From Pseudomonadota bacterium (GTDB taxonomy: Bacteria; Pseudomonadota; Gammaproteobacteria; Burkholderiales; Rhodocyclaceae): a DNA stretch of 64,000 bases. Of the stretch, positions 10,910-60,588 are shown in pieces (positions within the stretch are counted from its first letter, which is position 1; every line of letters begins with the position of its first letter). The stretch spans positions 124,001-188,000 of the forward strand of contig JAGTRU010000010.1 in the NCBI GenBank assembly GCA_018261905.1, read 5' to 3'. The notes beneath the pieces were generated by a model. The model was given only the letters and a program-made list of their open reading frames with translations, was not told the DNA's origin and ran no database searches. The translations under genes were made by a program, and so were the position numbers.

Positions 10910-11548
10910 TCACGTCCGCTCCGGCGCCCGCGGCAGATCGGCCAGGCGTTGCAAAATGAGTTCGGCAACCCGCCGGCTGGCGGGCAGGAAGGTGTGGATC
11001 AGCGGCAGGCGGATTTCGTCGCCGATCCAGGCGGCGGCAACTTCCGAAGTCGCCACCACGCCGTCGTTCTCTTCGCCGCTGAACGGCCCGTACTTTCCCC
11101 GTGATCCGCGAATGCCGATCACCGCCGTTGTCGGCGCCGCCAGCGGGCCGATGCGCTGCATCCGTTCGGCACTGGCGAGCAGGCGACCGCAGTCGCCGGT
11201 GATCAGGCGATACGGCAATCGGTTCTGCAGGCGTTGCGCTAGTCGGGCCGGGCGCGTCGGAGAACCGAGCAGAAATACCTGCGCGGCCGGCCGGGTTCCC
11301 GGTGGCAGGGCATTGACTGCGGCGCGTAGCAAAACTCCGCCCAGCGAATGGCCGATCAGGATGTAGTCGCCCCGGGCGGCGAGTTCGCCAATCCGGGTGG
11401 CAAGGCGGGTGGCGATGCTGGAAAAGTCGTCGCGGCTGACGCTATAGCCGAAGGTCGCAGTCTGGTGGCCGGCGCGTTTCAACTGGCGGAGTAACGGCCA
11501 GCCCGAAAGCGGCGAGCGGCCCATGCCGTGGATGAAGAGTGCCTGCAT
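10910..11548 (-). CDS. Alpha/beta hydrolase
   Basis: 212 residues from ATG 11548. It begins with the oxyanion-hole segment LFIHGMGRSP, has the nucleophile elbow GHSLGG with the catalytic Ser, and keeps an Asp (EENDGVV) and His (LIHTFLP) in positions suited to a catalytic triad. No signal peptide is seen. The substrate is unknown; the short lid suggests an esterase or lipase-like enzyme. It is separated by 49 bases from the Spx/ArsC-like gene on the same strand. Confidence 0.8.
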   Translation of the reverse strand: MQALFIHGMGRSPLSGWPLLRQLKRAGHQTATFGYSVSRDDFSSIATRLATRIGELAARGDYILIGHSLGGVLLRAAVNALPPGTRPAAQVFLLGSPTRPARLAQRLQNRLPYRLITGDCGRLLASAERMQRIGPLAAPTTAVIGIRGSRGKYGPFSGEENDGVVATSEVAAAWIGDEIRLPLIHTFLPASRRVAELILQRLADLPRAPERT

Positions 11549-45620: not shown

Positions 45621-45779
45621 GGTCTTGCGTCGGCATCCTGAATCAAGTCGGCGGCAAATTTATCATAGGGCGCCAGCCCCTGGCGGCAATTCGTCCGAGT
45701 TGATGCGTGGACGAACGGTGTCGAGGCGGGGGAGGTGAAGTCCGTTAGTGTTTGTTGGGTGATAGTAAAGAACTAAAAA

Positions 45780-45908
45780 TAGGCTAATAATCTAATTTGT
45801 TGTTGATATTGGCCTAAAAATAGACTGTTGTAACGTTTTTAAATTAAAAGACTATAATTAGCCTGTGAGTGGTTTTTTGTTTAGATAAAAGGCTAATAGT
45901 AGGCTATG
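45780..45908 (+). promoter_or_regulatory. Repeated AGGCTAAT motifs in the hipBA promoter region
   Basis: The 285-bp spacer before hipB is AT-rich, unlike its surroundings. AGGCTAAT occurs at 45781-45788 and 45890-45897, its complement ATTAGCCT at 45857-45864, and a partial TAGGCTA at 45900-45906 overlaps the hipB start. A TATAAT lies at 45853-45858, with TTGTAA 19 bp upstream. This is the layout of an autoregulated toxin-antitoxin operator. Confidence 0.6.
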
Positions 45909-46235
45909 GATGTTTATCGGATGACCAACGATGAGCTGGCTGCGCAGCTAGCCGCCAGCCTCAAGGCCTGGCGCGTTTCGCCCAACGGCGCGGCGCTGAC
46001 CCAGGCCGATCTGGCGCAGAAGTGCGGCATCGGCCTGACGCCGCTGAAGCGCTTCGAGAAAACCGGCGCCATCACCCTGCGCAACCTGATCGCCATCCTG
46101 CGCGCGCTGGATCTGCTTGACGGCCTGCAGAATCTGGTGCCCGACGCCGACAGCCCGGGGCCACTCGACGTGCTGGCCACGGCGCAGAAGAAGTCCGGCC
46201 AGGTCCGCCAACGCGCGCCGCGCTCGAAGGGGTAG
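45906..46235 (+). CDS. HipB-like antitoxin, XRE-family regulator
   Basis: 109 residues. A helix-turn-helix lies at ALTQADLAQKCGIGLTPLKRFEKTGAITLRNLIAILRAL, followed by a short basic tail (QKKSGQVRQRAPRSKG). It is likely the DNA-binding antitoxin that represses the operon through the repeated upstream motif and neutralises the adjacent kinase. The stop is three bases before the hipA-like start. No clear Shine-Dalgarno precedes the ATG, which overlaps an operator repeat. Confidence 0.88.
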   Translation: MDVYRMTNDELAAQLAASLKAWRVSPNGAALTQADLAQKCGIGLTPLKRFEKTGAITLRNLIAILRALDLLDGLQNLVPDADSPGPLDVLATAQKKSGQVRQRAPRSKG

Positions 46236-46238
46236 GCA

Positions 46239-47519
46239 ATGGATGACATTCGCGCCGTCCAGCTCAATATCTGGGGGCTGTTCGCTGGTGCTGTGGCGCC
46301 GCTGCGCAACAAGCCCGGCTACTACGAATTCAGCTATGCGCCGGAATTCGAAAAAGGTGGGCTGGAAATCTCGCCCATCCTGATGCCGCTCAAGGCGAAA
46401 CGGCGCTTCAGTTTCCCGGCGCTGGCCCAGGAAACCTTCCACGGCCTGCCCGGCCTGCTGGCCGATGCGCTGCCCGACAAGTTCGGCAATGCGCTGATCG
46501 ACGAATACCTGGCCCGGCGCGGCATTCTGCCTGGCGACATCATGACTTTGCAACGCCTGCTCTACGTCGGGCGGCGCAGCATGGGGGCGCTCGAATTCGA
46601 GCCGGCCGAAAAGGCCTTACGCGGCGCCGCGGCCAGCTTGCCGCTCGATATGGCGCACCTGGTCGAGGATGCGCGGCGGGTGCTCAAGGGCGAGTTTTCC
46701 AGCATCGCCCAGGACATCATCGATATCGGCAGTTCGGCAGGCGGGGCGCGCGCCAAGGCCGTGATCGGCTGGAACCGCCAGACCAATCAGGTGGTGTCCG
46801 GTCAATTCGACGTGCCCGATGGCTTCGAGCACTGGCTGCTCAAGTTTGATGTCGGTGGCGACGGCGAACTCGGCATCACGGCCGGTTTCGGCCGCATCGA
46901 ATACGCGCACGCGCTGATGGCCGCGGCGGCCGGCATCGAGATGAGCGAATGCCGGCTGCTCGAAGAGGGCGGCCGAGCGCATTTCATGACCAAACGTTTC
47001 GACCGGGTCGGCAACGCCAAGCTGCATGCCCAGTCGCTGTGCGGCCTGCTGCATCTCGATTTCAACATGCCCTATGTGCATGGCTACGAGCAATACCTGC
47101 GCACCGTGCTCGGCCTGCGCCTCGGTGCCGATGCGTTGGAACAGGCCTGGGCGCGCTGCGCCTTCAATGTCGCCATCGTCAATTGCGACGACCACAGCAA
47201 GAATTTCGGCTTCCTGATGGATCGTTCCGGCCAGTGGCGCCTCGCCCCGGCCTACGACACCTGCTTCGCGCACAATCCGGGCGCCGGCCGGTGGACGCGC
47301 CAGCACCAGATGCAGGTCGGCGGCAAGACCTGGGACATCGGCGTCGACGACCTGCTCGCCCTCGCCAAGACCTACGACATCCGCCGCGCCAGTGACCGCC
47401 TGCAGCAGATCCGCGAAGCCGTCGCCCGCTGGCCGGAGTTCGCCGCAACAGCTAGCGTGGCCGAGGCGGAAGTCGGAAAAATAGCGGCTTTGCAGCCGGC
47501 TTGGGCGAAGCCGGCCTAG
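46239..47519 (+). CDS. HipA-like serine/threonine kinase toxin
   Basis: 426 residues. HipA features are in order: an N-terminal subdomain with FHGLPGLLADALPDKFGN, a Gly-rich phosphate-binding loop GSSAGGARAKAV, FMTKRFDR, the catalytic segment NCDDHSKNFGFLMD (N-x-D-D-H-x-K-N) and LAPAYD for metal binding. HipA kinases phosphorylate aminoacyl-tRNA synthetases or other targets and halt growth. It is co-transcribed with the HipB-like gene. The pair sits next to the broken parC in locally AT-rich DNA, consistent with lateral acquisition of a toxin-antitoxin module. Confidence 0.9.
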   Translation: MDDIRAVQLNIWGLFAGAVAPLRNKPGYYEFSYAPEFEKGGLEISPILMPLKAKRRFSFPALAQETFHGLPGLLADALPDKFGNALIDEYLARRGILPGDIMTLQRLLYVGRRSMGALEFEPAEKALRGAAASLPLDMAHLVEDARRVLKGEFSSIAQDIIDIGSSAGGARAKAVIGWNRQTNQVVSGQFDVPDGFEHWLLKFDVGGDGELGITAGFGRIEYAHALMAAAAGIEMSECRLLEEGGRAHFMTKRFDRVGNAKLHAQSLCGLLHLDFNMPYVHGYEQYLRTVLGLRLGADALEQAWARCAFNVAIVNCDDHSKNFGFLMDRSGQWRLAPAYDTCFAHNPGAGRWTRQHQMQVGGKTWDIGVDDLLALAKTYDIRRASDRLQQIREAVARWPEFAATASVAEAEVGKIAALQPAWAKPA

Positions 47520-47556
47520 CTGTCGTGGACAGGCGGTGGCGGGCGCGTTGACTGGC

Positions 47557-48480
47557 CTACTTGTTGCGTTGCGCCAGCAGGCGCCCACCGCTCGCCACGA
47601 AATGGATGGGCGCGATTTGTTGCAGGGCGCTTGGCGCGGTGGACTCGTCGCCGATCAGGAAAACGCCGCTGACGCGGATTTCCCCCAACCGAGCGTCATC
47701 AAGCACGATGGGCTGTTTGCGGAAACGGTTCAATTCGGTGATGACCTCGGCCAGCGGTGTGGCATCGAAGGCGAGTTGTCCCCTGGTCCAGTTCAGTGCG
47801 CTGCGGCGTTCGATGTTGAGTACCGGACCGATCTTTCCGTTTTCGACAACCGCGGCTTCGCCGGCGTTCAGGCGTAGTGGCGGCTGCGCCTTGGCCGCGG
47901 GGAGAATGTCGACAATGCCTTCGGCCACCGTGACGCGGGTGTGTCGGGTGTCGGTCAGGACGGCGAAGCGGGTTCCGATGTCGCGGATGGTATTGCCGCC
48001 GGCCGTGATTGCGAAAGGCCGTTGACGGTCGACCGCGACGTTGACGGCAATTTCGCCGGCCAGCAGATCGATGCTGCGTTGCTTGTCATCGATGCTGATG
48101 CGCAGACGGCTATGGGGGGCAATATCGAGTTCGCTGCCGTCGTCCAGTTCTACATGCCGGACTTCGCCGGCTTCGGTCGACACCTGTCCGTCGAACCAGT
48201 GCAGGCCGAGCCAGCCACAAACGAGGATGACGCAGCCCAGGGCCAGGCCCCGCTGCACCGTTTGCCGTGCCGGCGGGGCTTGCCGCTGCAGGCGGGATGA
48301 ATCGTCCCAGATCTGTTCGAGGATCTTGAACTCCCGGGCATGTGCCGGGTCGGCGGCGAGCCATCTGGCGAAGGCGGCCCGTTGTTGTCCGGAAACCGAT
48401 TCGCCGCGCAGGCGGGCGAACCAGAGCGCGGCTTCTTCCTGGATTTGTTGCTCTTGAGAGGGGGGCAAGGACGGCGGCAT
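47557..48480 (-). CDS. FecR-family anti-sigma/sensor protein
   Basis: 307 residues from ATG 48480. A cytoplasmic N-terminal domain (EEAALWFARLRGESVSGQQRAAFARWLAADPAHAREF, DUF4880-like) precedes one membrane helix (GLALGCVILVCGWLGLHWF), a periplasmic FecR domain (DGSELDIAPHSRLRISID, GTRFAVLTD) and a C-terminal STN-like DUF4974 region (LAEVITELNRFRKQPIVL). It relays receptor occupancy to the FecI-like sigma factor. The sigma-factor stop is 32 bases upstream on the same strand. Confidence 0.93.
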   Translation of the reverse strand: MPPSLPPSQEQQIQEEAALWFARLRGESVSGQQRAAFARWLAADPAHAREFKILEQIWDDSSRLQRQAPPARQTVQRGLALGCVILVCGWLGLHWFDGQVSTEAGEVRHVELDDGSELDIAPHSRLRISIDDKQRSIDLLAGEIAVNVAVDRQRPFAITAGGNTIRDIGTRFAVLTDTRHTRVTVAEGIVDILPAAKAQPPLRLNAGEAAVVENGKIGPVLNIERRSALNWTRGQLAFDATPLAEVITELNRFRKQPIVLDDARLGEIRVSGVFLIGDESTAPSALQQIAPIHFVASGGRLLAQRNK

Positions 48481-48512
48481 GCGCCGGATTTTCGGGAGGG
48501 CCGGGCGGGCTG

Positions 48513-49052
48513 TCAATTGCAGACCAACTGGCTGGCCCGGAGTCGGCGCAAGTGGAGCATGGCGTTGGCCAGATGCTTTTCCACGGTTTTGGCCGAAATG
48601 GCTAGCTGCTCGGCAATCTGGTTTTGGGTCAGGGTGTCGAAGCGATGCAGGAAAAAGACCTGGCGGCATTTGGCCGGCAGCGACTGGATGTCGTTGGCCA
48701 GGGCAAACAGCTGTTGGCGCGCCGCCGCGATGCGCGCCGGATCGGCGATCGGGTCGGGCAGACTGTCCTGAAAATCGTCGATGGGAACAAGGATCGGCCT
48801 GGCCCGGCTGGCGCGCAGCAGGTCGATGACCAGATTCCTGCCGGCATGGAGCAGGAAAGCCCGGGGGTTGTAAATGGCTTCTTCGGGAGGCTTGATCAGC
48901 AAGCGCAAGAAAACGTCCTGGGCGGCATCCCGTCCTGCTTCCGGACAATCGAGCCGGCGGCTGAGGTATTGCCGCAATTCGTCGAAGTGATCGCGATACA
49001 ACTGCGTCAGGCTGATCTCGTTATTCAGGTTGGAAGCAAGGGAGGATGACAT
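48513..49052 (-). CDS. ECF sigma factor, FecI-like
   Basis: 179 residues from ATG 49052; the in-frame TTG at 49058 adds two residues. It has only regions 2 (LYRDHFDELRQYLSRRLDCPEAGRDAAQDVFLRLL) and 4 (LPAKCRQVFFLHRFDTLTQNQIAEQLAISAKTVEKHLANAMLHLRRL), as in FecI-type ECF factors. It forms an operon with the FecR-like gene and diverges from the STN-containing TonB receptor gene across a 157-bp spacer. It is likely to drive the receptor and the RiPP genes beyond it. Confidence 0.92.
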   Translation of the reverse strand: MSSSLASNLNNEISLTQLYRDHFDELRQYLSRRLDCPEAGRDAAQDVFLRLLIKPPEEAIYNPRAFLLHAGRNLVIDLLRASRARPILVPIDDFQDSLPDPIADPARIAAARQQLFALANDIQSLPAKCRQVFFLHRFDTLTQNQIAEQLAISAKTVEKHLANAMLHLRRLRASQLVCN

Positions 49053-49209
49053 GGGCAAATGCTAATGGCGACAGCAGTCTTCTCCAATGCGGCATGTTGC
49101 CGCAGGTGCCGGTTTTTCGGGGGGGCGAGGTAGGGAAAGGTTCGGCGATTTCGTCTTGGAAGGTAGAGGCACATTTCGTTGCCGTTTTGCCATAACCAGG
49201 GGGAAATAC

Positions 49210-51486
49210 GTGTTGCAAAGCAAATCGATGGCGCGTCCGGCGGCGCTGCGGAAACTACTGATCACCACAATGATCCTGGCCTGCCATAGTGTTGCGGCTT
49301 TTGCCGCTCCGGATATCAGGGTCGATATTGCGGCTCAGCCACTTTCTTCCGCCCTGCGTGATTTGGCCAGCCAGGCCGGGGTGCAATTGGTATTTGCGGC
49401 CGAGACGGTGGGGGCTGCCAAGGCGCGCGCCATCAAAGGTGAAATGAGCGTCGATGCCGCTCTCCGCAAACTGCTGGTCGGCAGCGGGCTGGAGTTCCGC
49501 CAGGACGGTGACAACAGCTATGTCATCGTGCGCAGCGAGCACAGCGAGAACGTGCTGCCGGAAATGGTGGTCACGGCGACGCGGACGGAGCGCGCCGTGG
49601 ATGAGGTGCCGGCGAGCGTCAGCGTGATTGGCCGCAAGGAACTCGCCCAGCGCAACCTGAACAACCTTCAGGAATACCTGCGCACAGTCGAGGGGGTCGA
49701 GGCAGGCCAGCTATTCTCGGTTCCCCATGCCAGCAGCATCGATATTCGTGGTGTTGGCGGTTCTTACTCGGCGCCAACGAGCAAGGTTCTGCTGGACGGG
49801 ATGAATACCGATGCCATCGTTTCTCAGGTGCAAGGGAACGGAGGCCTCAATTTTCTTTCTCCCTGGGATGTGGAGCAGGTGGAAGTGGTGCGGGGGCCCG
49901 CTTCGGCCCTGTACGGGCCGGAGGTCGTCGGCGGGGTGGTCAATCTGATACCCAAACGCTGGCGTGGCGATATGGGGGGTGAAATCCACGCGGGTTATGG
50001 CAGTCACGACACTTCCCGCGTTGGTGCGGCTATGGGCAGCGCCGGAGAGATCGGTGACTTCCGGATTTCCACCTACAGCGCCAGGAGTGACGGCTTCATT
50101 GCCCAGCGCCAACCGGATACTCCGGGGGGGATGATTTCCGTCGATCTGGCGCCGCGAAACTGGACGGACAAGAAAAATAGTTTCACCGGTGCATTACGGC
50201 CATCAGAACGGCAAGAGGTCACTTTTGCCTATCAGGATTTTGCCACCCATTCCTTCACCATGGGGGGGCACCCCAATCGGTATCTCAATCTCGATGGTCA
50301 GACCTGGACAGTGGGCTACAGGCATGAATTGGGCGATTCGGGCAGCATCAAGGCAGGCTATCGGGAAACTCGTCTCGATCAGCGTTTCGGTTTTGACAAC
50401 GAGTATCTCTGGGGCACTCCCGGCGATCTGGGGCTGGCGGCCAAGGGGGCAAAGTCCAGCAATTCTTCGGAATTCAACCTGCAGGTCGATTGGAACATCA
50501 CGCCCGACAACACGGTGATTGCCGGCTATAGCAGGAGTACCGGCGAGTTTGAACTGAATAGCATGTTCGGCAACGTAGATCGCAACAAGTCGACGGTCGA
50601 TGGCCTGTATATTCAGGATGAAGCCAGGATGGGGTCGTGGAAGCTGGTCATGGGAGGGCGACAGGATTACATCCGTATGTACGGCGATACGGAAAATGGT
50701 GTCGAAACCAATCCCAGCTCTTCCGTCAGCGTTTTCAATCCACGTCTCGGAGCCCAATACGAGTGGAACGATTCGACATCCCTTTATGCCTCTGCCGGCA
50801 CCGCCTACGTACCTGCCACCAATTCAGCCAAGTTTCTTGACGGAGATGTACCCAACAGCAGTCTGAAACCCGAAAAATCCGTTTCCTACGAAATCGGACT
50901 GCGTACCCGGCAAAAGTATGGCGATTTCAAACTTGCCGTATTTCATACCTTGTATCAGGACAAGATCAACCGGGTGGAAATTGCTCCCGGGGTGGGACAA
51001 AACCAGAACATCGACCGGGTTGAGGTCCTGGGGGTGGAACTGGGCTGGAAAGCCCGCTTCCGGGAAGCCTGGAATCCCTTTCTCAATTACAGCTATACCG
51101 ATTCGACCATTAAAGCGGATGTCGCCAATCCTCAGAACGTCGGCACACGCATGCCGCAGACTTCGGTACACAAATTGAATCTGGGGCTGCTCTATGCACC
51201 CGGCGGTGACTGGTCTGCCAGCGTCAGCAGCACCCTGCGCAGCAGCCAGTATGTCCGGCAATGGTATTGCCCGACGAACAACACCAATACCTATGAATGC
51301 CATCTGGATGGCTACTTTACCGCCGATGCCAGGCTGACTCGCGTTATCAGGCCTTTTGGGGACAAGAGCAGCTGGAATGCCTGGATCGCCGTCAACAACT
51401 TGGGTGACAAGCACTATCGCCAGTATTACCCCTTTGAATACTCCGACGGTCGTACCTGGACGGTGGGTATCGATGGGAAATTTTAA
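49210..51486 (+). CDS. TonB-dependent receptor with N-terminal signalling (STN) domain
   Basis: 758 residues from GTG 49210, which has AGGGGG upstream; ATG 49228 is an alternative. A signal peptide is followed by an STN domain (DIRVDIAAQPLSSALRDLASQAGVQLVFAAETV), a TonB-box-like LPEMVVTATRTER, a plug domain (VVRGPASALYGPEVVGGVVNLIPK) and a 22-stranded-barrel region ending in SDGRTWTVGIDGKF with terminal Phe. STN receptors signal through FecR/FecI when ligand binds, matching the divergent genes. Its location directly upstream of the peptide gene suggests that it takes up the modified peptide or its metal complex. Confidence 0.93.
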   Translation: MLQSKSMARPAALRKLLITTMILACHSVAAFAAPDIRVDIAAQPLSSALRDLASQAGVQLVFAAETVGAAKARAIKGEMSVDAALRKLLVGSGLEFRQDGDNSYVIVRSEHSENVLPEMVVTATRTERAVDEVPASVSVIGRKELAQRNLNNLQEYLRTVEGVEAGQLFSVPHASSIDIRGVGGSYSAPTSKVLLDGMNTDAIVSQVQGNGGLNFLSPWDVEQVEVVRGPASALYGPEVVGGVVNLIPKRWRGDMGGEIHAGYGSHDTSRVGAAMGSAGEIGDFRISTYSARSDGFIAQRQPDTPGGMISVDLAPRNWTDKKNSFTGALRPSERQEVTFAYQDFATHSFTMGGHPNRYLNLDGQTWTVGYRHELGDSGSIKAGYRETRLDQRFGFDNEYLWGTPGDLGLAAKGAKSSNSSEFNLQVDWNITPDNTVIAGYSRSTGEFELNSMFGNVDRNKSTVDGLYIQDEARMGSWKLVMGGRQDYIRMYGDTENGVETNPSSSVSVFNPRLGAQYEWNDSTSLYASAGTAYVPATNSAKFLDGDVPNSSLKPEKSVSYEIGLRTRQKYGDFKLAVFHTLYQDKINRVEIAPGVGQNQNIDRVEVLGVELGWKARFREAWNPFLNYSYTDSTIKADVANPQNVGTRMPQTSVHKLNLGLLYAPGGDWSASVSSTLRSSQYVRQWYCPTNNTNTYECHLDGYFTADARLTRVIRPFGDKSSWNAWIAVNNLGDKHYRQYYPFEYSDGRTWTVGIDGKF

Positions 51487-51557
51487 TTACGACGATGGAT
51501 GCATGTCTCCTCCTTTTCCCGGCCACCCCTGAAACCACTCATTGAAAGGAATCAATC

Positions 51558-51701
51558 ATGGAACAGAAAACTGAAATGCAAATCGAGGAAGTTGTTTTCG
51601 AATCGCTGGAAGGTTGTAACGAGGCGTTTGAGAAGTTGACCATGGCCGCCTGCTGTAGCACTCAAGGTGGCCCGATGTGTGGCTGCGGCCACAAGATGTA
51701 A
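51558..51701 (+). CDS. Putative Cys-rich RiPP precursor peptide
   Basis: 47 residues from ATG 51558 with AAAGGA upstream, too short for routine gene calling. An acidic leader-like N-terminus (MEQKTEMQIEEVVFESLEGC) is followed by a core-like C-terminus CCSTQGGPMCGCGHKM. Five cysteines (20, 32, 33, 41, 43), His45 and Met40/Met47 are candidate crosslinking or metal-binding residues. It is followed after 66 bases by three radical SAM/SPASM genes and an ABC exporter. This position, composition and size fit a ribosomally made, post-translationally modified peptide. I do not recognise its family. Confidence 0.82.
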   Translation: MEQKTEMQIEEVVFESLEGCNEAFEKLTMAACCSTQGGPMCGCGHKM

Positions 51702-51732
51702 ATCCTTCAACCACTGAACTGATGTAAATCAA

Positions 51733-51751
51733 GGGGATGGTCGGGATCCCC
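51733..51751 (+). other. Intercistronic hairpin between precursor and maturase genes
   Basis: GGGGAT pairs with ATCCCC around a 7-nt loop, without a T-tract, 16 bases before the first radical SAM start. It could stabilise the upstream mRNA or lower readthrough, so that more peptide than enzyme is made. Confidence 0.45.
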
Positions 51752-51767
51752 ATTGGAGATGACAGCC

Positions 51768-53201
51768 ATGATAGAAGCTCGGGATTTTCACGTATTCAGC
51801 AAAGATGAACAGCATTATCTGTTCCTCGCCCAACCAGTGGCGATCTTCAAAATCGACGCCTCTACTGCCGATGTCTTGGCCAGAAAGGAAAGCGGTGCAG
51901 CACTGGAGGATGTTGAACAGGAACAACGCTGGCAGAAGGTGCAGGATTTCATCGCAGGTTACTGCGCAAAGAGCCCGGCTGCCAAGGTCATGCGCAGGCC
52001 GGAAGACATCACCGACAAGGTGATGGGGATTTATCTTTTTGTTTCTCAGGAGTGCAACCTGAAGTGCTCCTATTGTTACGGTGACGAAGGGGAATACGGG
52101 AAACGGGGCCGCATGGGGGAGCAAACCATGGAACAGGCCATGGAAGCCTTTTTCTCCAGGGGCCAAGGCAACCACTTTCTTATCTTCTTCGGTGGCGAAC
52201 CTCTAATGAATTTCCCGCTGATGAAGAAAACCGCTGCGCTGGCCGAATCCTACCGGGAGTCGGGGAAAGGCGATATCGGCTTCGGCATCGTCACCAACGG
52301 TACTTTTTGCAATCCAGAGATCAAGGAATTCTTCGACAACCACATCGTCGACGCCACCTTCAGTCTGGATGGTCCTGGCGACCTCAACGACAGCCAGCGT
52401 GTCAGCAAGGACAGCCGCAGCGTCTTCCATACCGCGCAAGACAACATCCGCACATTGACCGCCGGCAACCGCTTCAACTGGGCCTTCCGCTCCATCGTCA
52501 CCTCGGCCGGACATGACCGGGTTGCGGAAATTTACGACACCCTGGAGCAATTCGGGCCGGGCGGGATTGGCATCGTCAATGTGGATGTACCCAAGGACAG
52601 TCCTCTGCATCTCGACGACGAGCAGTACCGGAAGTTCGTTGCCCAGATCACCGATATCAATCGCAAGGGCTTGCGCAGCTTCATTGAAGGCGAACAAGCT
52701 GTCGCCTTCGAATACCCTTTCTACGTCCTGTTCCACTTCGTTTCCCGTAGCCATGCTCTCTACCACTGCAATGCCGGGACCAATCTGCTGGCCGTAACGG
52801 CGGAGGGCGACGTTTATCCCTGCCATCGTTTCGTCGGCGAAGAAGCCTTCCGCATGGGCAATGTGGACGATCCCGAACTGCGCAGCAGCGACCGTTTCCA
52901 GAATATTCGCCAGCAATTCGTCGATGCCACGGTAGATAACCGGCCGGGCTGCCGGGACTGCTGGGCCCGCTACCTGTGCGGCGGGGCCTGCGCCAAGTAC
53001 TCCTACGCTGAACACGGCGACATGCGGCAACCGGTGGAACGCCACTGTTACTACATGAAGACGGTGATCGAGAATATTCTGCCCGACATCGTTTCCGTCA
53101 TCAGCGATCCTCAGGCCAGGAGCAGGCTGTCGACCCGGCTGCAACGGGCTATCAGCAACCGTCACGGCAGTCATAGTCTCGATGCCGCCCAACCTGCGTG
53201 A
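51768..53201 (+). CDS. Radical SAM/SPASM peptide maturase 1
   Basis: 477 residues from ATG 51768, with GGAG nine bases upstream (an ATG at 51759 lies too close to it). The first ~60 residues (DFHVFSKDEQHYLFLAQPVAIFKID) look like a peptide-recognition, RRE-like domain. The radical SAM cluster motif is C96-x3-C100-x2-C103 (ECNLKCSYCY), followed by FFGGEPLMN and TNGT. The SPASM domain has YHCNAGT, VYPCH, CRDCWARYLCGGAC and a final Cys (ERHC), enough ligands for two auxiliary iron-sulfur clusters. Such enzymes form thioether, C-C or similar crosslinks in RiPP precursors. It overlaps maturase 2 by 20 bases. Confidence 0.93.
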   Translation: MIEARDFHVFSKDEQHYLFLAQPVAIFKIDASTADVLARKESGAALEDVEQEQRWQKVQDFIAGYCAKSPAAKVMRRPEDITDKVMGIYLFVSQECNLKCSYCYGDEGEYGKRGRMGEQTMEQAMEAFFSRGQGNHFLIFFGGEPLMNFPLMKKTAALAESYRESGKGDIGFGIVTNGTFCNPEIKEFFDNHIVDATFSLDGPGDLNDSQRVSKDSRSVFHTAQDNIRTLTAGNRFNWAFRSIVTSAGHDRVAEIYDTLEQFGPGGIGIVNVDVPKDSPLHLDDEQYRKFVAQITDINRKGLRSFIEGEQAVAFEYPFYVLFHFVSRSHALYHCNAGTNLLAVTAEGDVYPCHRFVGEEAFRMGNVDDPELRSSDRFQNIRQQFVDATVDNRPGCRDCWARYLCGGACAKYSYAEHGDMRQPVERHCYYMKTVIENILPDIVSVISDPQARSRLSTRLQRAISNRHGSHSLDAAQPA

Positions 53202-54546
53202 TTGGCACGTCGTCGCAGACGACAAGGCCAGCCTCCTGTTCTTTCCCCGGAGCTACCGGCTTTTCCGGATAGCTCCGGAAGAAGGGCGGCAACTGGCCGA
53301 ATGGCATGCAGGGAAAAGTATCTCCCCGCCGTCTCGCTTCGCCCAACTGATCGAGTCGGAAGCTGGACAGCCCATTCCCGCGGATGCGGGAGGCTGGGGC
53401 GAAACGGACAATCTCTGTCTGTACGTGGCCCACGATTGCAACCTCCGCTGCACCTACTGCTACAACCAGCAGGGCCGGGTCGCCGCCCCGGGGCGGATGA
53501 TGGACCCGGCTGTCGCAGAGACGGCTTTCCGTCGCTTCTTCGCCTCCCCGGGCAAGCGCTACAGCGTGGCCATGTACGGGGGAGAGCCCCTGCTCAACTT
53601 CCGCGGCATCCAGTCCATGGTCGAAAGGGGCCGGGCCGTGGCAAGCGCGCGGCGGACCGAAGTCGCCTTCAGCATCACCACCAACGGCATGCTCCTCAAC
53701 CGGCGCCGCATCGACTACCTGGCAGCCAACTTCGCCTCCATCAGCGTCAGCGTGGACGGGCCGCCGGCCGACCACGACCGTTTTCGCATCGCTCCCAAAG
53801 GCAGCGCCTATGCCCGCATGTACAAGCATCTGCCGGCCCTGAAGGCTGCATGCGGCGACCGGCTCTCCCTGCTCGGCACCCTGACCGGCGGGACTGCCGA
53901 ACGCTATGCGGAGACCCTGGACCATCTACGGCAGCTAGGCGGCCCGAAAGCCACCCTATCGCCGGTGGAAGGTAATGCTGACAACCCCTCCGGCATGAAC
54001 GCCGAGCAGTTCGCGGCCTACTCCCGCCAGCATGCCCAGCGCTGCAGCGACGCCATCGCCGCGGGACTGGAGGACGACGCTCCGCGCGAAGCAGTCAACG
54101 TGGTAGTCAACCTGCTCACCCAGCGCCGCCTGCGCCGCTTCTGCGCCGCTGGGGCCAACCCGGCAGTGGCCGCCGACGGCTCCCTCTACGCCTGCCACGG
54201 GCTGGTCGGAAATCCCAGCTTCTACATGGGATCGGTAACAGCGGAGGCGGATGAAAACTGGCAGCGGGTCCAACGCCAATTCGCCGCACTGGACGTAGAC
54301 CGCATGGCTGCATGCGCCACCTGCTGGGCCCGCTATCTCTGCGGCGGCCAGTGCTACGCCCAGGCCTACTTCCACAGCGGCGATGTGGCCCGACCCGATC
54401 CCCGCTATTGCCAGCATGTCCGCCGGAGCTTGGAAGCCAGTTTGCTGGCTTTCCAGCAAACTGTGGCCGACGAGACCGGGCGCCGCCGGCTCTATCTCCG
54501 GGCCAGGCAACTCATCGGTGCAAGCAGGGACGCCCCCCATGTCTGA
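53182..54546 (+). CDS. Radical SAM/SPASM peptide maturase 2
   Basis: 454 residues from ATG 53182. An N-terminal domain related to that of maturase 1 (LRDWHVVADDKASLLFFPRSYRLFRI) precedes the radical SAM motif C86-x3-C90-x2-C93 (DCNLRCTYCY), then MYGGEPLLN and TNGM. The SPASM cysteines are complete: FCAAGAN, LYACH, CATCWARYLCGGQC and RYC. It is a paralogue of maturase 1 but diverged, so it probably modifies a different residue or step. It overlaps both neighbours (20 and 8 bases), which implies co-translation. Confidence 0.93.
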   Translation: MPPNLRDWHVVADDKASLLFFPRSYRLFRIAPEEGRQLAEWHAGKSISPPSRFAQLIESEAGQPIPADAGGWGETDNLCLYVAHDCNLRCTYCYNQQGRVAAPGRMMDPAVAETAFRRFFASPGKRYSVAMYGGEPLLNFRGIQSMVERGRAVASARRTEVAFSITTNGMLLNRRRIDYLAANFASISVSVDGPPADHDRFRIAPKGSAYARMYKHLPALKAACGDRLSLLGTLTGGTAERYAETLDHLRQLGGPKATLSPVEGNADNPSGMNAEQFAAYSRQHAQRCSDAIAAGLEDDAPREAVNVVVNLLTQRRLRRFCAAGANPAVAADGSLYACHGLVGNPSFYMGSVTAEADENWQRVQRQFAALDVDRMAACATCWARYLCGGQCYAQAYFHSGDVARPDPRYCQHVRRSLEASLLAFQQTVADETGRRRLYLRARQLIGASRDAPHV

Positions 54547-55669
54547 GCCACTGGAGTGTCTGTATCTGCTGGTTGCCGGCGATTGCAACCTGCGCTGTTC
54601 CTACTGCTACGCCGATGGCGGCGCCTATGGCCGCAGCTCTGCGGCGATGAGCCAAGCCACCATGGAGGCGGCCCTTACCCGCCTGATGCCGAGGAATGGC
54701 GAACTGATGCTCTCCTTCTTCGGCGGCGAGCCCATGCTCAACTGCACCCTGATCCGCCAAGCCATTGCCTTCGCCCGCGACCGGGGCGAACGGCTGGGCA
54801 CGACCGTGCGTTTCGCCATGACTACCAACGGTACAGTGCTCGACGACGACGGACTGGATCTGCTGCGACAGCACTTCTCCCATGTCGCCGTCAGCCTCGA
54901 CGGCCCCCGGGAAAACACCAACCACGGGCGCCGTTTCCTACAGGGAGAAGGGGATGTCTACGGATGCATCCGCCGCAACCTGGAACGCCTGCGTGGTGCC
55001 GGGATTCCCTATTCCCTGCGCGGCACCGTCGCTGAAGAGCGAGCCGGCGAGGTGGCATCGTCGGTGCGTCATCTGGCTGAGCTTGGCGCTACCTGCTGGC
55101 GTATCGAGCCGGCGGCTGGCCGGCGCTGGCAAAAGGAGGCCTGGCGGCGCTTCGGCGACGGCATGGCGGAACTGGGCAGGGATTCCCGGGAGGCGTTGCT
55201 GCAGGGCAATCCCATGCCGGTGCCCGGCGATATCTACCGGGCGGCAGCCCACCGCCTGCACGGGCGCCGCCAGCATTTCCCTTGTCCGGCCGGGCAGCGC
55301 ATGTTGGCCGTCAGTACCAATGGCGACGTCTTTCCCTGCCACCAGTTTGTTGCCCATGCCGAAGCGCGACTGGGCAATGTCCACGACCCACAGCCAGCGG
55401 ATTTCACTGACACTGCCTTGGCCCGCGCCCTGGCGGAAAATGCCGTCGAGAATCGGCCGCGCTGTCGCACCTGTACCATTCGTCACCTGTGCGGCGGACA
55501 GTGCCCGGTGCATTGCCTGAGCCAGAGCGGCGATCTGGCCCAACCCTCCGCCGACTACTGCGCTCTGCAGCACCGATTGCTGACGCCCACGCTGCGCTTT
55601 GTGGACGAACTGCTGTCCAGCCGGGAAGGGGAGACGCGGCTGCGGCATCTGCTGGGCGACGGGACATGA
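54539..55669 (+). CDS. Radical SAM/SPASM peptide maturase 3, lacking the N-terminal domain
   Basis: 376 residues from ATG 54539, which overlaps the maturase 2 stop; a longer frame from 54383 would run back through that gene and is rejected. The radical SAM motif appears almost at once (C16-x3-C20-x2-C23, DCNLRCSYCYADGG), so there is no room for an RRE-like domain. FFGGEPMLN and TNGT follow, and the SPASM part has PCPAGQ, VFPCH, CRTCTIRHLCGGQC and a final Cys (DYC). It may depend on maturase 1 or 2 for precursor recognition. Its stop overlaps the ABC ATPase start (ATGA). Confidence 0.92.
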   Translation: MSEPLECLYLLVAGDCNLRCSYCYADGGAYGRSSAAMSQATMEAALTRLMPRNGELMLSFFGGEPMLNCTLIRQAIAFARDRGERLGTTVRFAMTTNGTVLDDDGLDLLRQHFSHVAVSLDGPRENTNHGRRFLQGEGDVYGCIRRNLERLRGAGIPYSLRGTVAEERAGEVASSVRHLAELGATCWRIEPAAGRRWQKEAWRRFGDGMAELGRDSREALLQGNPMPVPGDIYRAAAHRLHGRRQHFPCPAGQRMLAVSTNGDVFPCHQFVAHAEARLGNVHDPQPADFTDTALARALAENAVENRPRCRTCTIRHLCGGQCPVHCLSQSGDLAQPSADYCALQHRLLTPTLRFVDELLSSREGETRLRHLLGDGT

Positions 55670-56409
55670 CGGCCATCAAGATTGAGGCCCTGACCCTGGG
55701 ATACCCCAACGGCCGCATTGCTGTCAGGGAGCTCTCACTTTCCATCTCCCGCGGGGAGATCTTCGGTCTGCTGGGTCTTAACGGTGCCGGGAAGAGCAGC
55801 CTGATCAAGGCCATCTCCACCCTGCTGCGGCCCCACCTCGGCAGCATCCAGGTGCTGGGCATGGATACCCGGCAGCAGGCGGCAAGGATCAAACGCCGCA
55901 TCGGCGTCGTGCCCCAGGAGAACAACCTGGATACCCGACTCGATATCCGCCAGAACCTGCTCTTCCATTGCCGCTATGCCGGTATGCCGGAGCGTCTTGC
56001 CGCCGCCCGGGTCGAACATTGGTTGCAGCGCCTGAATCTGCAGGGCCATACGGAGGAATCGATATTCCGGCTCTCGGGCGGCACCAAGCGCAAGATCATG
56101 CTGGCCAAGGCCTTCCTCACCGACCCCGAGCTTCTGATCCTCGACGAGCCCAGCGCCGGCCTGGACCCCGGGGTCCGCGACGTGCTCTGGGAACAGATTC
56201 GCCAGTTCCGCCAATGTGGCGGCACGGTTTTCCTCTCTACCCACTATCTGGAGGAAGCGGAAGAACTCTGCGACCGCATCGGGGTATTGCACCAGGGCAG
56301 CCTGGCCGGCATGACCCGTCCGGCAGACGGCCTTCGCCTGGAGAGCGGCCTGGACGTGGCCGAGTTCTTTCGCCAAGCCGTGGAGCCTGCCCCATGCGTT
56401 TCGCCCTGA
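55666..56409 (+). CDS. ABC transporter ATP-binding protein
   Basis: 247 residues from ATG 55666. Walker A GLNGAGKSS, Q-loop VVPQENN, signature LSGGTKRKIMLAK, Walker B LLILDEPSAGLDP and switch His STHYLEEAEEL are all present, in the CcmA/DrrA-type exporter pattern. With the permease encoded next (16-base overlap) it forms an ABC-2-type exporter, most likely for the mature peptide or for self-protection. No peptidase domain is fused, so leader removal would need another enzyme. Confidence 0.93.
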   Translation: MTAIKIEALTLGYPNGRIAVRELSLSISRGEIFGLLGLNGAGKSSLIKAISTLLRPHLGSIQVLGMDTRQQAARIKRRIGVVPQENNLDTRLDIRQNLLFHCRYAGMPERLAAARVEHWLQRLNLQGHTEESIFRLSGGTKRKIMLAKAFLTDPELLILDEPSAGLDPGVRDVLWEQIRQFRQCGGTVFLSTHYLEEAEELCDRIGVLHQGSLAGMTRPADGLRLESGLDVAEFFRQAVEPAPCVSP

Positions 56410-57152
56410 CTTTGCTCTATCGCAACCTGATCATCGCCCGAGCCGATGCCCGCTACACTTTCATCCGCACGGTTCTCCAGCCGGCCATTTATCTGCTCGT
56501 CTTTGGTCTGGTCGTTGGCAGGCTGATGCCCAATGGAGCCGGTGGCTACGGCGCCATCGTTGCCCCTGGCATCATTGCCATCTCGGTCGTCTCCGCCCCC
56601 CTGATCGCCATCAGCAGCTATCTCCTTACCGGCTATTACTTCCGCACGATGGAAGAGTGGCTGCTGGCGCCGGTCAGCCTGCGCACGGTGTTCCTTTCCA
56701 TGGTCTTCGCCGGCCTCTGTAGCAGCCTGGTCAATGCACTCCTGGTGGGTGGGCTGGCCTGGGCCATCCTCGGCTTGGTACCGCAGTCGCCGGGACTACT
56801 GCTAGCCGTGGTGAGCGGCGGCGGGCTGCTCTTTTCCCTGCTGGTGATGTTGGTGCTGCTGATCCCGGAGCGCCCCGAAAAAGGCCAGGAACTGTTCGCC
56901 CTGCTGATGATGGTGATGACCTTCCTCGGCTGCACCTTCTATTCCCTGGAAATGCTGGACGAGCCCTTGCGTTCGTTGGCGCTGTTGCTGCCCACCACCT
57001 ATGTCAGCGAAGGGCTGCGGGCGGCCTACCTGCCGGCCGGCCCCCATTTGGCCGTCCGCCCCTTGCTCCTCGGCCTTGGTCTCGTCACCCTGGCGCTATA
57101 CCCGGCTGCCGCGTGGGCGTTCCGGCGGCGCCTCGGCCACTTTACATGGTAA
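56394..57152 (+). CDS. ABC-2-type permease
   Basis: 252 residues from ATG 56394. Six membrane helices are visible, with the ABC-2 signature around LVFAGLCSSLVNALLVGGLAWAILG and LLPTTYVSEGLRAAYLPAG. It is the membrane half of the exporter with the preceding ATPase. Its stop overlaps the start of the second TonB receptor by seven bases, tying export and outer-membrane uptake genes into one transcript. Confidence 0.92.
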   Translation: MRFALTLLYRNLIIARADARYTFIRTVLQPAIYLLVFGLVVGRLMPNGAGGYGAIVAPGIIAISVVSAPLIAISSYLLTGYYFRTMEEWLLAPVSLRTVFLSMVFAGLCSSLVNALLVGGLAWAILGLVPQSPGLLLAVVSGGGLLFSLLVMLVLLIPERPEKGQELFALLMMVMTFLGCTFYSLEMLDEPLRSLALLLPTTYVSEGLRAAYLPAGPHLAVRPLLLGLGLVTLALYPAAAWAFRRRLGHFTW

Positions 57153-59044
57153 GAAAGTTTTTTTTGCTCTGCTTGTTTGTTCCGCCGCCGCTTGCCTACG
57201 GCGGCGATGTGGATGTAGGTACCCGCATCACCGCCGCTGACATCGCCGCGGAACGTCCTGCCGGTTTGACCGAGTTGTTGCGGCAAAAAGTCGGCCTGGA
57301 TGTAAACAACGGCAGTATTACTATGCGGGGAGTTCGAGGCATTGCCATTTGGGTGGATGGATTTTCCTCTTCGGCAACTGAACTGGAATTAATCCGTCCT
57401 GAGCAGGTGGAATTGATCGAGATATTCCGCGGCGCAGCTTCTTCACGCTTTGGCGCCGAGGCCATGGGGGGGGCGATTGCGGTGACGACGCGGCGGGCCG
57501 GCGGTCGGCAGAATGCTGCGGTCAACCTGACGCAGGGGCTGGATTCCCGTGGCGGCAGCTATAACCGGGTGGGCGGCAGCGGCGAGCGCGCCGAGCTGGC
57601 CTGGGCCTTACTGGCGGAAAGCCGTGAGGACAAGGGCTTCCGTGCCGTGCCGCACTCGCCTTTTCCCTACCAGATTACGGTGGCCGACGAGCATGGCCGC
57701 GGTACTTCCGTGGACGGCAAGCTGGCCTGGAACGGCAGCGACGTTGCCAGTTCGCTGAACCTCAAGCACTCGGACAACCATTCGTTTTTCGGACGGCCGA
57801 ACTGGGCTTTCGACTGGCAAACCGATACCGCCCGCAGCCAGTTCTCCTGGAAGGTGAACGAACGCTGGTCGCTGGAGGCCGCCTTGGGCGAAGATCGTTA
57901 CGCCACGGCCGGGGTGCGGGATCGCGGTACTGGAATCGACACTGCCGGCCTGGCGGCAGATCAATGGCTGACCCAGAATTCTCGCCAGCTTGAGGCCTCG
58001 GCGACGCTGTCTTGGCAGGACGGCGGCTGGCAGGGACGGCTGGGCGGCAGCTCGATCGAACTGTCGGAACAATTCAGCGCCAGCGATTACGCCAGCCGCG
58101 CCCTGCGCGCGCAGGCTGATTCGTTGATCCGCAAGGAGGCGTTGTTCGCTGCCGGTGAACTGCCGCTCGGCGCCGGTCGTCTGGAACTGGGCCTGCGCCG
58201 CGACTGGCAACGCTATGTGTCGTCGCGCGTGTTCGACGCCGGCCCGCCCGGCCAGGAAACGCGGGGCGGCGGCGTGGTCAAGGCCGCCACCAGCCCGAAA
58301 ATTGCGCTGTCCTGGCCGCTGGGCGAGACCCTTCGCTTGCGCGGCAGCCTGGGCAGTGGTTTCTCGCCGCCGCAGGCGACGCAGCTTTACAACGGCTATG
58401 TCAGCGCCGGTTCGGTGACGCTGGCCAATCCCTCCCTGAAACCGGAGCGTTCGACCACCGCCGACCTCGCCCTGCTGGGCAGCATGGCGGGCGGTAACGG
58501 CGGCATCACCCTGTTCGCAACGCGCTGGCAGGACAAGATTGCCGTGCGCATCCTCGATTACGGCTCGCCGGTGGTGCAGCAAACGCAAAACGTCGGTGAA
58601 GTGCTGGCGCACGGGCTGGAAACGCACTGGTCGCAGCCCTTGTTCGAGCGCTGGCAGCTCAATGCCAATTACACCTACACCCGGACCCGTATCGTCCGCG
58701 ACCAATCGGCGCCGCAACTGGTCGGCAACGCCTTGCCGGACATGCCCCGGCACAAGGCAAATTTGGCGCTGAATTACGCGTCGACCGCTGGGTTTTCCGC
58801 CCGCGCCAAATGGCGCCTGGTCGGCAGCGCCTATACCGACGAAGCCAATACCGTGGTCGATAGCCAGGGCTATCGCTGGAAAAAGTCGGCCTACGACGTG
58901 CTCGATCTGGCGGCAAGCTGGCGGGCAAAAAGCTGGGAAGCAACGCTGGCGCTGGACAATGTCTTCGACCGTGACTACGTCAGCGGGTTTTTCTGGCATG
59001 GCGAACCGCGCACCCTGCGCGGCGAATTCATTTTGCGTTTTTGA
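57146..59044 (+). CDS. TonB-dependent outer-membrane receptor, short form
   Basis: 632 residues from ATG 57146. A signal peptide (FFLLCLFVPPPLAYG) leads straight to a plug domain (ITMRGVRGIAIWVDGFSSS, EIFRGAASSRFGAEAMGGAIAVTTRRAGG) and a beta-barrel ending in GEFILRF with terminal Phe. No STN domain is present, in contrast to the receptor at 49210, so it is a transporter without the FecR-type signalling part. It overlaps the permease gene and nearly abuts the propeller-cytochrome gene. Confidence 0.93.
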   Translation: MVRKFFLLCLFVPPPLAYGGDVDVGTRITAADIAAERPAGLTELLRQKVGLDVNNGSITMRGVRGIAIWVDGFSSSATELELIRPEQVELIEIFRGAASSRFGAEAMGGAIAVTTRRAGGRQNAAVNLTQGLDSRGGSYNRVGGSGERAELAWALLAESREDKGFRAVPHSPFPYQITVADEHGRGTSVDGKLAWNGSDVASSLNLKHSDNHSFFGRPNWAFDWQTDTARSQFSWKVNERWSLEAALGEDRYATAGVRDRGTGIDTAGLAADQWLTQNSRQLEASATLSWQDGGWQGRLGGSSIELSEQFSASDYASRALRAQADSLIRKEALFAAGELPLGAGRLELGLRRDWQRYVSSRVFDAGPPGQETRGGGVVKAATSPKIALSWPLGETLRLRGSLGSGFSPPQATQLYNGYVSAGSVTLANPSLKPERSTTADLALLGSMAGGNGGITLFATRWQDKIAVRILDYGSPVVQQTQNVGEVLAHGLETHWSQPLFERWQLNANYTYTRTRIVRDQSAPQLVGNALPDMPRHKANLALNYASTAGFSARAKWRLVGSAYTDEANTVVDSQGYRWKKSAYDVLDLAASWRAKSWEATLALDNVFDRDYVSGFFWHGEPRTLRGEFILRF

Positions 59045-59061
59045 CTGGCAAGGAGTGCTGC

Positions 59062-60402
59062 GTGCGCAAACGACCGATTTTCTCCGTTCTCTTTAGCCTG
59101 GCCGTGCTGCTGGCGACGCCGGCCCAGGCTTGCCGGCCTTTCGGCTCGTACGGTTTTGCCGAAGATGCCGAGGGGGGCATATGGTTTACCGAAGGGGACA
59201 ACAATGCCGTGTCCCGCCTGTCCATAGACGGTACGGTCATTTCCCATCCTCTCCCAACGCCAGCGGCGGAACCGTCGTCAGTGGCCGTAGACCGGGCTGG
59301 CAATGTCTGGTTTGCCGAGATGGACGGTCGCCGTATCGGCCGTCTGGTACCGGATGGTCATCTCGACGAGTACCCGGTGCCCTTCGGGCAACCCTTCCAG
59401 GTGGCCGTGGATGGCCATGGGGAGGTTTGGTTCACGGTGCTGGCGGAGCACCAACATGGCGAAGCTGGTCACCAGCACGAGCCTTCGCCCTCTGGTATCG
59501 GCCATCTCGACAGGGCAGGTCAACTACGCTTTTATCCGGTACCAGGCGGTTGGCCCAGTGCCATTGCCTTCGATAGCCGGGACCAGGCCTGGGTCACCCT
59601 GCAACTGCCGGACCAAGGGGGGCGCGGCTCCCAAGGCAGATTGCTGCGCTTGTCCAGGGACGGCCAGTGGCAGGAAGAAAAGGCCTGGTCCAGCCCTAGC
59701 TGTCCGCGCAATCTTCTTGCCGACCAACAGGGCGGCTTGTATTTTTCTGATGGTTGTCGCCACAGTGTCAGCCACCGAAATGGCAGCGGCAGCCTGCGGG
59801 AGTGGCCTCTTCCAGGCGATACGCGTATTCAGGGGCTATCCCTGGCACCGGATGGGCGTTTGTGGTTTACGGATAGGGCTACCCTGGGTTACATGGATCG
59901 ACACGGTCACGCGGTTTTCCTGCGGCGCCCCGCCATCGGTGATGCCACGATGGCGGTACTGGCGCTGCGCAACGGCGACCTGGTGTTCTCCGAGTTCTAC
60001 AACTACAACATCAACCGCCGAACGAAGACCGGAGAGTACGTCGAACATCTGGTCAATATCGAGGAACGCCGGGGCAGCCGCGAAGTGCGCGACGGCGAAG
60101 TCTGCTACGTGCAATTCGCCGCGCGCATCGCCGGCAAGGCGGAGATGGACAATAAAAGGGCCGAGGAAGTGCGCAGCGGCCAGTTCAAACCCGACGGTGC
60201 CGGCACGGAAAAGCTGGTTGAACAAAAATGCCTGGCCTGCCACGACGCCCGCCGCCTCCTGCTGTCGCGGCGCAGCGACTGGACGCCGAGCCTGACGCGC
60301 ATGCACTCCTACCGCCAGCTACGCGGCGTGGCGCCGCTGACACCGGAGGAGACGGCGCGACTGGTGCGTTATTTCAACGCGTATTACGGACTCGGGCATT
60401 AG
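59062..60402 (+). CDS. Secreted Vgb-like beta-propeller with C-terminal c-type haem motif
   Basis: 446 residues from GTG 59062, which has AAGGAG seven bases upstream. The signal peptide (IFSVLFSLAVLLATPAQA) is followed by repeated blades of the virginiamycin B lyase type (GGIWFTEGDNNAVSRLSIDG, GNVWFAEMDGRRIGRLVPDG, GRLWFTD). A His-rich loop EHQHGEAGHQH interrupts the propeller. Near the C-terminus CLACH is a covalent haem-binding motif, with Met residues downstream as possible axial ligands. The protein may oxidise, crosslink or bind the peptide or its metal in the periplasm. It is the last gene of the run. Confidence 0.82.
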   Translation: MRKRPIFSVLFSLAVLLATPAQACRPFGSYGFAEDAEGGIWFTEGDNNAVSRLSIDGTVISHPLPTPAAEPSSVAVDRAGNVWFAEMDGRRIGRLVPDGHLDEYPVPFGQPFQVAVDGHGEVWFTVLAEHQHGEAGHQHEPSPSGIGHLDRAGQLRFYPVPGGWPSAIAFDSRDQAWVTLQLPDQGGRGSQGRLLRLSRDGQWQEEKAWSSPSCPRNLLADQQGGLYFSDGCRHSVSHRNGSGSLREWPLPGDTRIQGLSLAPDGRLWFTDRATLGYMDRHGHAVFLRRPAIGDATMAVLALRNGDLVFSEFYNYNINRRTKTGEYVEHLVNIEERRGSREVRDGEVCYVQFAARIAGKAEMDNKRAEEVRSGQFKPDGAGTEKLVEQKCLACHDARRLLLSRRSDWTPSLTRMHSYRQLRGVAPLTPEETARLVRYFNAYYGLGH

Positions 60403-60588
60403 GCGGCACTGCGTCGGAATGCCGGCGGGGAGGTTGGTTGCAGCAAGCGCGCCGCAGCCGTGGATGGGAGCGATGCGCTTCCGCAGCTGTAGCGGAAAAC
60501 AAGTCGATGCATGGGCAACAATGCTCTGGACGGACCCGGCCGGACTTGCTATTACTATTCCTTCGGGATGACCTGGTCAGGCTGAATC

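Follow-up and report, generated by a model that had tools for sequence, protein, structure and literature searches.

A Conserved Radical SAM Peptide Locus in a Rhodocyclaceae Genome with a Possible Role in Copper Scavenging

The 4.9-Mb genome of a member of the Rhodocyclaceae (assembly GCA_018261905.1; G000) contains an eleven-gene locus combining a small Cys-rich precursor peptide and three radical S-adenosylmethionine (SAM) maturases with an ABC-2 exporter, two TonB-dependent receptors (TBDT1 and TBDT2), a FecI/FecR pair and a secreted propeller-cytochrome. The locus occupies positions 47557-60402 of the window, that is, the 64,000-nucleotide stretch analyzed here (contig 39 of the genome, JAGTRU010000010.1, positions 124,001 to 188,000). 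The locus is real and conserved. It is best read as encoding a copper-scavenging peptide that is made by radical SAM enzymes, exported, taken up again and sensed through FecIR, a reading to which we give about as much credence as doubt. A sequence-only reading of this DNA had proposed the export and re-uptake of a metal-binding peptide, a proposal that is partly borne out by genomes retaining only the receptor side of the system and by a palindrome shared with copper genes, with metal binding, chemistry and transport still at the level of prediction.

Results and Discussion

Locus Organization and Conservation

Genes were called from open reading frame (ORF), Pfam and NCBIfam scans of the window, with several starts re-chosen, and all those named in the sequence-only reading were recovered at essentially the same positions. 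With the chosen starts, adjacent genes between 51768 and 60402 overlap or almost abut, as it had also stated. The features are as follows:

47557..48480, minus strand: FecR-type anti-sigma regulator (PF04773, PF16220)
48513..49052, minus strand: FecI-type extracytoplasmic function (ECF) sigma factor (Sigma70_r2 and r4_2)
49088..49104, no strand: palindrome TGCGGCATGTTGCCGCA, predicted regulator site common to copper-handling genes (8 sites in the own genome, 1 for the reversed pattern)
49128..49159, plus strand: predicted ECF-type promoter-like element AGGTAGGGA...CGTCTTGG (pattern in 5 of 18 loci scanned)
49210..51486 (likely start), plus strand: TBDT1, TonB-dependent receptor with STN signalling domain (STN, plug, barrel)
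51517..51530, plus strand: 5' arm of a predicted stem around the peptide gene (arm complementarity)
51558..51701, plus strand: precursor peptide, 47 residues (relatives P0001-P0006, 50 profile matches)
51732..51746, plus strand: 3' arm of the predicted stem, ahead of rSAM1 (arm complementarity)
51768..53201, plus strand: rSAM1, radical SAM/SPASM maturase with RRE-like N-terminus (Pfam; AlphaFold2; fold match)
53182..54546, plus strand: rSAM2, radical SAM/SPASM maturase (PF04055, TIGR04085)
54539..55669, plus strand: rSAM3, radical SAM/SPASM maturase without N-terminal extension (PF04055, PF13186)
55666..56409, plus strand: ABC transporter ATPase, DrrA/NodI-like (Pfam, NCBIfam)
56394..57152, plus strand: ABC-2 permease, predicted exporter (PF01061)
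57146..59044, plus strand: TBDT2, TonB-dependent receptor without STN (plug and barrel)
59062..60402, plus strand: secreted Vgb-type propeller with one C-terminal CxxCH c-heme motif (PF24684; fold match to Vgb)

TBDT1 probably starts at the GTG at 49210 and not at the ATG at 49087, because the conserved palindrome and the ECF-like promoter sit there; in ORF residue numbering its Pfam domains are STN (99-149) and plug (172-284).

The peptide has four Cys within its last 16 residues and one in the leader, and matches no Pfam or NCBIfam family. Lack of the precursor beside these maturases in every related genome would have refuted the proposed pathway; a peptide gene is instead present in all 11 triple-maturase loci that cover the gap before rSAM1. 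This count takes in the window itself as well as G022, which has no more than a fragment of rSAM1. The same gap holds a small Cys peptide in six of six loci with a single maturase, from Methylobacter (L023, L025, L026), Phaeospirillum (L024), Schekmanbacteria (L027) and Methyloversatilis (L029). A profile of the peptide gathers 50 clusters, comprising 31 of type A, 17 of type B (C...G[PR][MK]C) and two outside both core patterns (P0005, P0162). Type A was picked by CC-x3-GG, so conservation counts only for the remaining core positions, at which all 31 sequences have Cys at +9 and +11 as well as Gly at +12, and 24 of them have Met at +8.

Among the best 80 of 397 loci from a scan of GTDB contigs, at least seven triple-maturase loci were found at 59-68% identity, belonging to Accumulibacter sp. 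66-26, two Sulfuricella, Gammaproteobacteria HGW-1 and STE_91, Thiobacillus, and Gallionellaceae UBA2239. All eleven genes are present in eight loci (window, L017, L018, L019, L021, G435, G436, G552); L020, L022 and L028 end at contig ends, and L021 and G070 probably represent one genome, as do L017 and G097. With the own genome included, 3 of 399 genomes from the order carry rSAM1, as do 3 of 369 from the class and 1 of 398 from the phylum. In the genus it is present in 4 of 76, three copies being full and one a fragment. The propeller is present in the same 3 of 399 order genomes as rSAM1 and in 6 of 76 in the genus, and we therefore consider it part of the system.

Radical SAM Maturases

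CxxxCxxC and SPASM cysteines are present in all three window maturases, and the corresponding motif expression holds for 26 of the 27 maturases checked and fails only for the G022 fragment. The SPASM domain of rSAM2 was missed by Pfam PF13186 and reported by TIGR04085. Membership in families with other known substrates would have told against the proposed pathway; among the 25 best NCBIfam matches of each enzyme none passes an equivalog cut-off, the best scores being 235.8 of 518.7 bits for rSAM1, 186.5 of 518.7 for rSAM2 and 226.8 of 340 for rSAM3. In the order rSAM1, rSAM2, rSAM3, the values are 192.2, 183.6 and 177.1 bits for SCIFF (TIGR03974, cut-off 425), 220.2, 176.9 and 226.8 bits for PapB (NF047865, cut-off 340), and 235.8, 186.5 and 213.1 bits for Nif11-like (TIGR04064, cut-off 518.7). 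The AlphaFold2 model of rSAM1 (predicted local distance difference test score, pLDDT, 82.6) has as its top fold match CteB, a thioether-forming maturase, and its N-terminus resembles the fold of a RiPP (ribosomally synthesized and post-translationally modified peptide) recognition element (RRE).

A search with rSAM1, in which 8000 candidates were scored and the best 120 of 443 matches considered, returned 57 relatives at 51-94% identity (P0007-P0063) and one shorter relative at 63%, followed by a drop to 34-35%. In a 46-row tree, rSAM1, rSAM2 and rSAM3 each make up one side of a branch that every bootstrap recovers, and the three maturases together with the single maturases are separated (100/98) from 9 of 11 outgroup rows; of the other two, P0077 lies among the Methylobacter enzymes and P0084 is long-branched. 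The tree uses 8 of 9 outgroup loci, L031 not having been recovered, and omits the Methyloversatilis metagenome-assembled genome (L029), whose sole maturase (9827-11385) is spread over two frames. The G435 and G436 rSAM1 enzymes group with Thiobacillus, and the window enzyme falls among others that include Accumulibacter 66-26 (82/92). P0084 is a Methanothrix protein named a SCIFF maturase at its source; it falls in with the maturase clade on its long branch, and there may be an archaeal version.

Receptor-Only Relatives

Within the genus the locus is complete in the own genome, G435 and G436. Three other genomes lack intact maturases and the exporter: G434 has FecR-FecI and TBDT1-TBDT2-propeller; G458 has TBDT1-TBDT2-propeller; and G022 has FecR-FecI, TBDT1, the peptide, a 152-residue rSAM1 frame, TBDT2 and the propeller. 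These genomes are 99-100% complete, and a search of them for rSAM1 found only the G022 fragment. Because TBDT1, TBDT2 and the propeller are kept in three genomes that have neither intact maturases nor the exporter, they constitute a separable uptake half of the system. Receptor-only bacteria possibly use a peptide made by their neighbours; alternatively, these loci may be on the way to being lost.

Block Divergence between the Window and G436

The window and G436 share a chromosomal site, with DNA identities of 89.6% over 44697-49628 and 93.2% over 59926-63228 (87-93% in the flanks of the diverged block). From about 49500 to 57200, 200-base windows are mostly at 0.46-0.79 identity, and TBDT2 is back up to 86.6%. 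At the protein level, identities are 95% for FecI, 93% for FecR, 50% for TBDT1, 62% for rSAM1, 39-41% for rSAM2, 40% for rSAM3, 56 and 51% for the ABC proteins, 86% for TBDT2, 66% for the propeller and 98% for the P-type ATPase beyond it. Along the TBDT1 ORF, identity is 0.90-1.00 for residues 1-120, 0.77 and 0.70 for 121-180, and 0.27 thereafter. This drop after STN shows that the signalling domain stayed with the resident FecI and FecR and that the ligand-binding part moves with the biosynthetic genes. From the plug and barrel of TBDT1 through the peptide and the maturases to the exporter, the two loci differ as a single block, which was probably exchanged by recombination. Identity to G436 falls again in the middle of the propeller (about 59200-59926), with both ends conserved, as if this part touched a variable ligand.

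Complementary Arms around the Peptide Gene

Triple-maturase loci have complementary arms ahead of the peptide start and ahead of rSAM1, located at 51517-51746 in the window and at the same place in L096, L016-L021, L118, L120 and L136. In eight loci, only 0-2 of 200 shuffles per locus match the contiguous-arm score. Across 11 loci, pairing with the own partner averages 36.7 versus 27.8 with the arms of other loci, and none of 20,000 permutations attains the sum obtained. Compensatory differences between the arms occur in L019 and L021, and T-runs follow the 3' arm in L017, L018, L021 and L118. Less favourable to a stem, the own 3' arm is the best partner in just 6 of 11 loci, and a predicted fold enclosing the peptide gene with at least 10 pairs, found in 11 of 11 loci, is also obtained with 7-39 of 60 flank shuffles. 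Taken by itself the fold is weak evidence, and what supports the arms is their contiguous complementarity and own-partner pairing. Single-maturase loci give no comparable signal: in five of the six, 71-192 of 200 shuffles reach the score, and in L027 11 of 200 do. By eye, these loci have a local hairpin in the same gap. We infer that the arms act as an RNA stem; they may instead be an inverted repeat in DNA.

A Shared Palindrome Points to Copper

A 17-bp palindrome of the pattern TGYGRCA-N3-TGYCRCA lies 35 bp ahead of fecI. It is exact at the same place in the window, G436, G435, G022 and Accumulibacter 66-26, and has one mismatch in G434, G458 and Thiobacillus, for a total of 8 of 13 triple-maturase or receptor-only loci with zero or one mismatch. 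The own genome has the palindrome at eight places, compared with one for the reversed control, and the seven other sites (G000 C67:22276, C67:42399, C67:43944, C38:133547, C33:15524, C26:106292 and C56:125) form a possible copper or redox regulon, mostly of copper-handling or TonB-uptake genes. Three are near genes for SCO1/SenC, NosL and a multicopper oxidase; a fourth has PCuAC ~1.2 kb downstream, past two unannotated ORFs; a fifth is beside TonB, TolQ/ExbB- and TolR/ExbD-like genes and a receptor; and a sixth lies between divergent receptors, one weakly like a TonB-dependent copper receptor (108.9 of 472.45 bits) and one PqqU-like. The SCO1/SenC, NosL, oxidase, TonB and divergent-receptor sites are 26-97 nt upstream of the first Met or Val; the seventh site is at a contig end with no clear gene. 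Because four of these seven sites adjoin copper-handling genes, the palindrome points to a copper link for the locus and is the main ground for the copper reading. No clear Fur box was found in 15 promoter stretches, the window scoring 11 of 19, which 50 of 100 shuffles also attain, and the best, HGW-1, 13 of 19, which 3 of 100 attain.

Proposed Pathway

We predict that a copper- or redox-linked regulator acting at the palindrome sets the level of FecI and FecR. Loaded peptide on the TBDT1 barrel would signal through the STN domain to FecR and FecI and so to the ECF-like promoter, in a positive feedback of the kind that characterizes the FecIRA circuit. The stem around the peptide gene would raise or protect the precursor mRNA. 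In rSAM1, and probably in rSAM2, the RRE-like domain would grip the leader, allowing the three enzymes to install cross-links, most likely thioethers, on the CC-x3-GG-x2-C-x-C core; the leader would then be cut off by a protease encoded elsewhere. The ABC-2 transporter likely secretes the peptide, and the two TonB receptors, TBDT2 serving as second importer, together with the propeller-cytochrome likely retrieve the copper-loaded product and free its metal. The propeller-cytochrome would work after uptake, perhaps by reducing the metal.

Weighing the Copper Reading against Alternatives

Several observations weigh against this pathway or the role of copper in it. Thioether formation would consume Cys thiols otherwise able to bind copper. 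No leader protease was recognized, the flanking ORFs of 16 loci having been compared only with one another. TBDT2 is missing from the fetched stretch of Accumulibacter 66-26 (L016), as are both TBDT2 and the propeller from that of Phaeospirillum L024. In G458 FecR has no match, and the only FecI-like gene is 36% identical. Five of the 13 loci lack the palindrome ahead of TBDT1 or fecI, and the PCuAC site and three other sites fall inside mechanically listed ORFs. Copper chaperones serve respiration in general, and the support for copper is all drawn from sequence.

The palindrome also resembles the redox boxes of RegA and RegR. The same secreted and re-imported peptide could bind iron, zinc, nickel, a soft metal or several metals, with the palindrome reporting oxygen or redox state via a regulator of the RegA/RoxR type, and FecIR/STN systems are best known for iron. 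The four copper-adjoining sites and the lack of a clear Fur box speak against this alternative, which we regard as unlikely though the strongest of those considered. On the other side, RegR controls nos and copper-homeostasis genes in Bradyrhizobium, according to one report (PMC4064962).

We give somewhat less weight still to the possibility that the propeller-cytochrome uses the peptide as a redox cofactor or electron shuttle, in the manner of pyrroloquinoline quinone (PQQ), and that the receptors scavenge it. Consistent with this, the propeller-cytochrome accompanies the receptors in receptor-only genomes, like an apo-enzyme; rSAM1 resembles QhpD below its cut-off (196 of 453 bits), the cytochrome part weakly resembles QhpA (E 0.007), and PqqU imports PQQ. 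However, sensing through STN, FecR and FecI and the exchange of the sensor-barrel block better fit a secreted, variable ligand, and the four invariant core Cys suit metal binding or cross-links. An antibacterial of the sactipeptide or ranthipeptide kind, entering rivals via TonB receptors and using the ABC genes for export and immunity, seems very improbable: many radical-SAM thioether peptides are antibacterial and the ATPase resembles DrrA below its cut-off (211.2 of 312.45 bits), but genomes lacking maturases and exporter retain both receptors, and in two of these genomes FecI and FecR lie alongside, which is the reverse of escape from a toxin.

Relation to Known Systems

The layout had been likened to that of a methanobactin operon. 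The comparison holds for the mode of action, predicted to be that of a methanobactin or siderophore system. The locus is nonetheless no methanobactin operon, because the cluster has no MbnB-type gene: PF05114, the family of MbnB and other multinuclear nonheme iron-dependent oxidative enzymes (MNIOs), is not among the Pfam matches of cluster proteins. The sole PF05114 match of the own genome is on another contig (G000 C50:61655-62437); this gene is unrelated to the locus and perhaps belongs to a second peptide pathway. As described in PMC3621798, group I methanobactin operons share a small Cys precursor, an STN-type TonB receptor, a FecI/FecR-like pair and an exporter, some with a secreted heme protein partner. 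In contrast, the present locus has three radical SAM enzymes and no gene of the MbnB/MbnC type, an ABC-2 rather than a MATE exporter, two receptors, and a propeller-monoheme protein in place of MbnP/MbnH. MbnH is a diheme protein. Where methanobactin loci are recognized by a TonB receptor or MATE exporter beside the precursor, this locus has two such receptors.

CteB is the nearest fold, and the SCIFF and PapB ranthipeptide maturases are among the closest families of the locus maturases, which differ from them in scoring under the equivalog cut-offs and in acting beside a precursor without a family match. To our knowledge, the CteB/SCIFF and PapB systems lack TonB receptors and FecIR. Ribosomal peptides are also tied to metal binding in the peptidic thiooxazole metallophores, which are made by MNIO enzymes where the present locus has radical SAM enzymes (PMC13097082), and in a copper-binding Microbulbifer RiPP (PMC12538549). 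The locus also resembles FecIRA/siderophore surface signalling, with FecI, FecR and an STN receptor adjacent in a divergent or neighbouring layout; it differs in that the predicted ligand is a peptide from the same operon and in having no clear Fur box. Among the literature matches listed, we found no published description of this gene set.

It is conceivable, though we lean slightly against it, that this is the founding radical-SAM-made ribosomal chalkophore, of a class apart from methanobactins that one or three CteB-like enzymes produce. The ligand part of the receptor and the biosynthetic genes would then be swapped as a cassette under a fixed signalling domain, and relatives would steal the product. 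Few bacterial copper-acquisition systems are known, and the ribosomal ones among those considered here rest on MNIO chemistry. If true, the radical SAM route would bring a further family of peptides into metal uptake, in methanotrophs, in oxidizers of sulfur and iron and in other freshwater or wastewater bacteria. Producers and receptor-only species within one genus would provide a built-in test of cheating, and block divergence at the junction of signalling and ligand binding would be a natural experiment in how receptor specificity tracks its ligand.

Propeller-Cytochrome and Flanking Genes

The fold match of the propeller is Vgb (virginiamycin B lyase); the propeller rows headed VIA-align represent propeller matches only. 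Unlike Vgb, the locus protein is secreted and bears a c-heme domain, and the place of Vgb His270 is apparently taken by Met, Phe, Leu or Val in 14 of 14 sequences, none having His, with blade register set by eye from alignment A3 and the model. The heme motif is CX3CH rather than CxxCH in all five single-maturase propellers (L023, L025, L026, L027, L029; alignment A3).

No Rfam family exceeds its gathering score in the window at 44-64 kb, and sigma-70 promoters (3 versus 3.0) and terminators (11 versus 10.9) are no commoner than in shuffles. The locus is flanked by HipA (46239-47519) and a P-type cation ATPase (60589-63261). Both were considered as cluster parts and rejected because, among 11 other loci, they have matches only in G436 (95% for HipA, 98% for the ATPase), as shared flank. 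Beyond cluster genes and overlapping ORFs, a few flank ORFs of the 16 loci are common to two of them; one is shared by L018 and L021 at 78% and another by L017 and L021 at 56%. In Methylobacter marinus A45 (L023, 15644-18012), the permease frame is broken into two parts, which enclose an ORF on the opposite strand.

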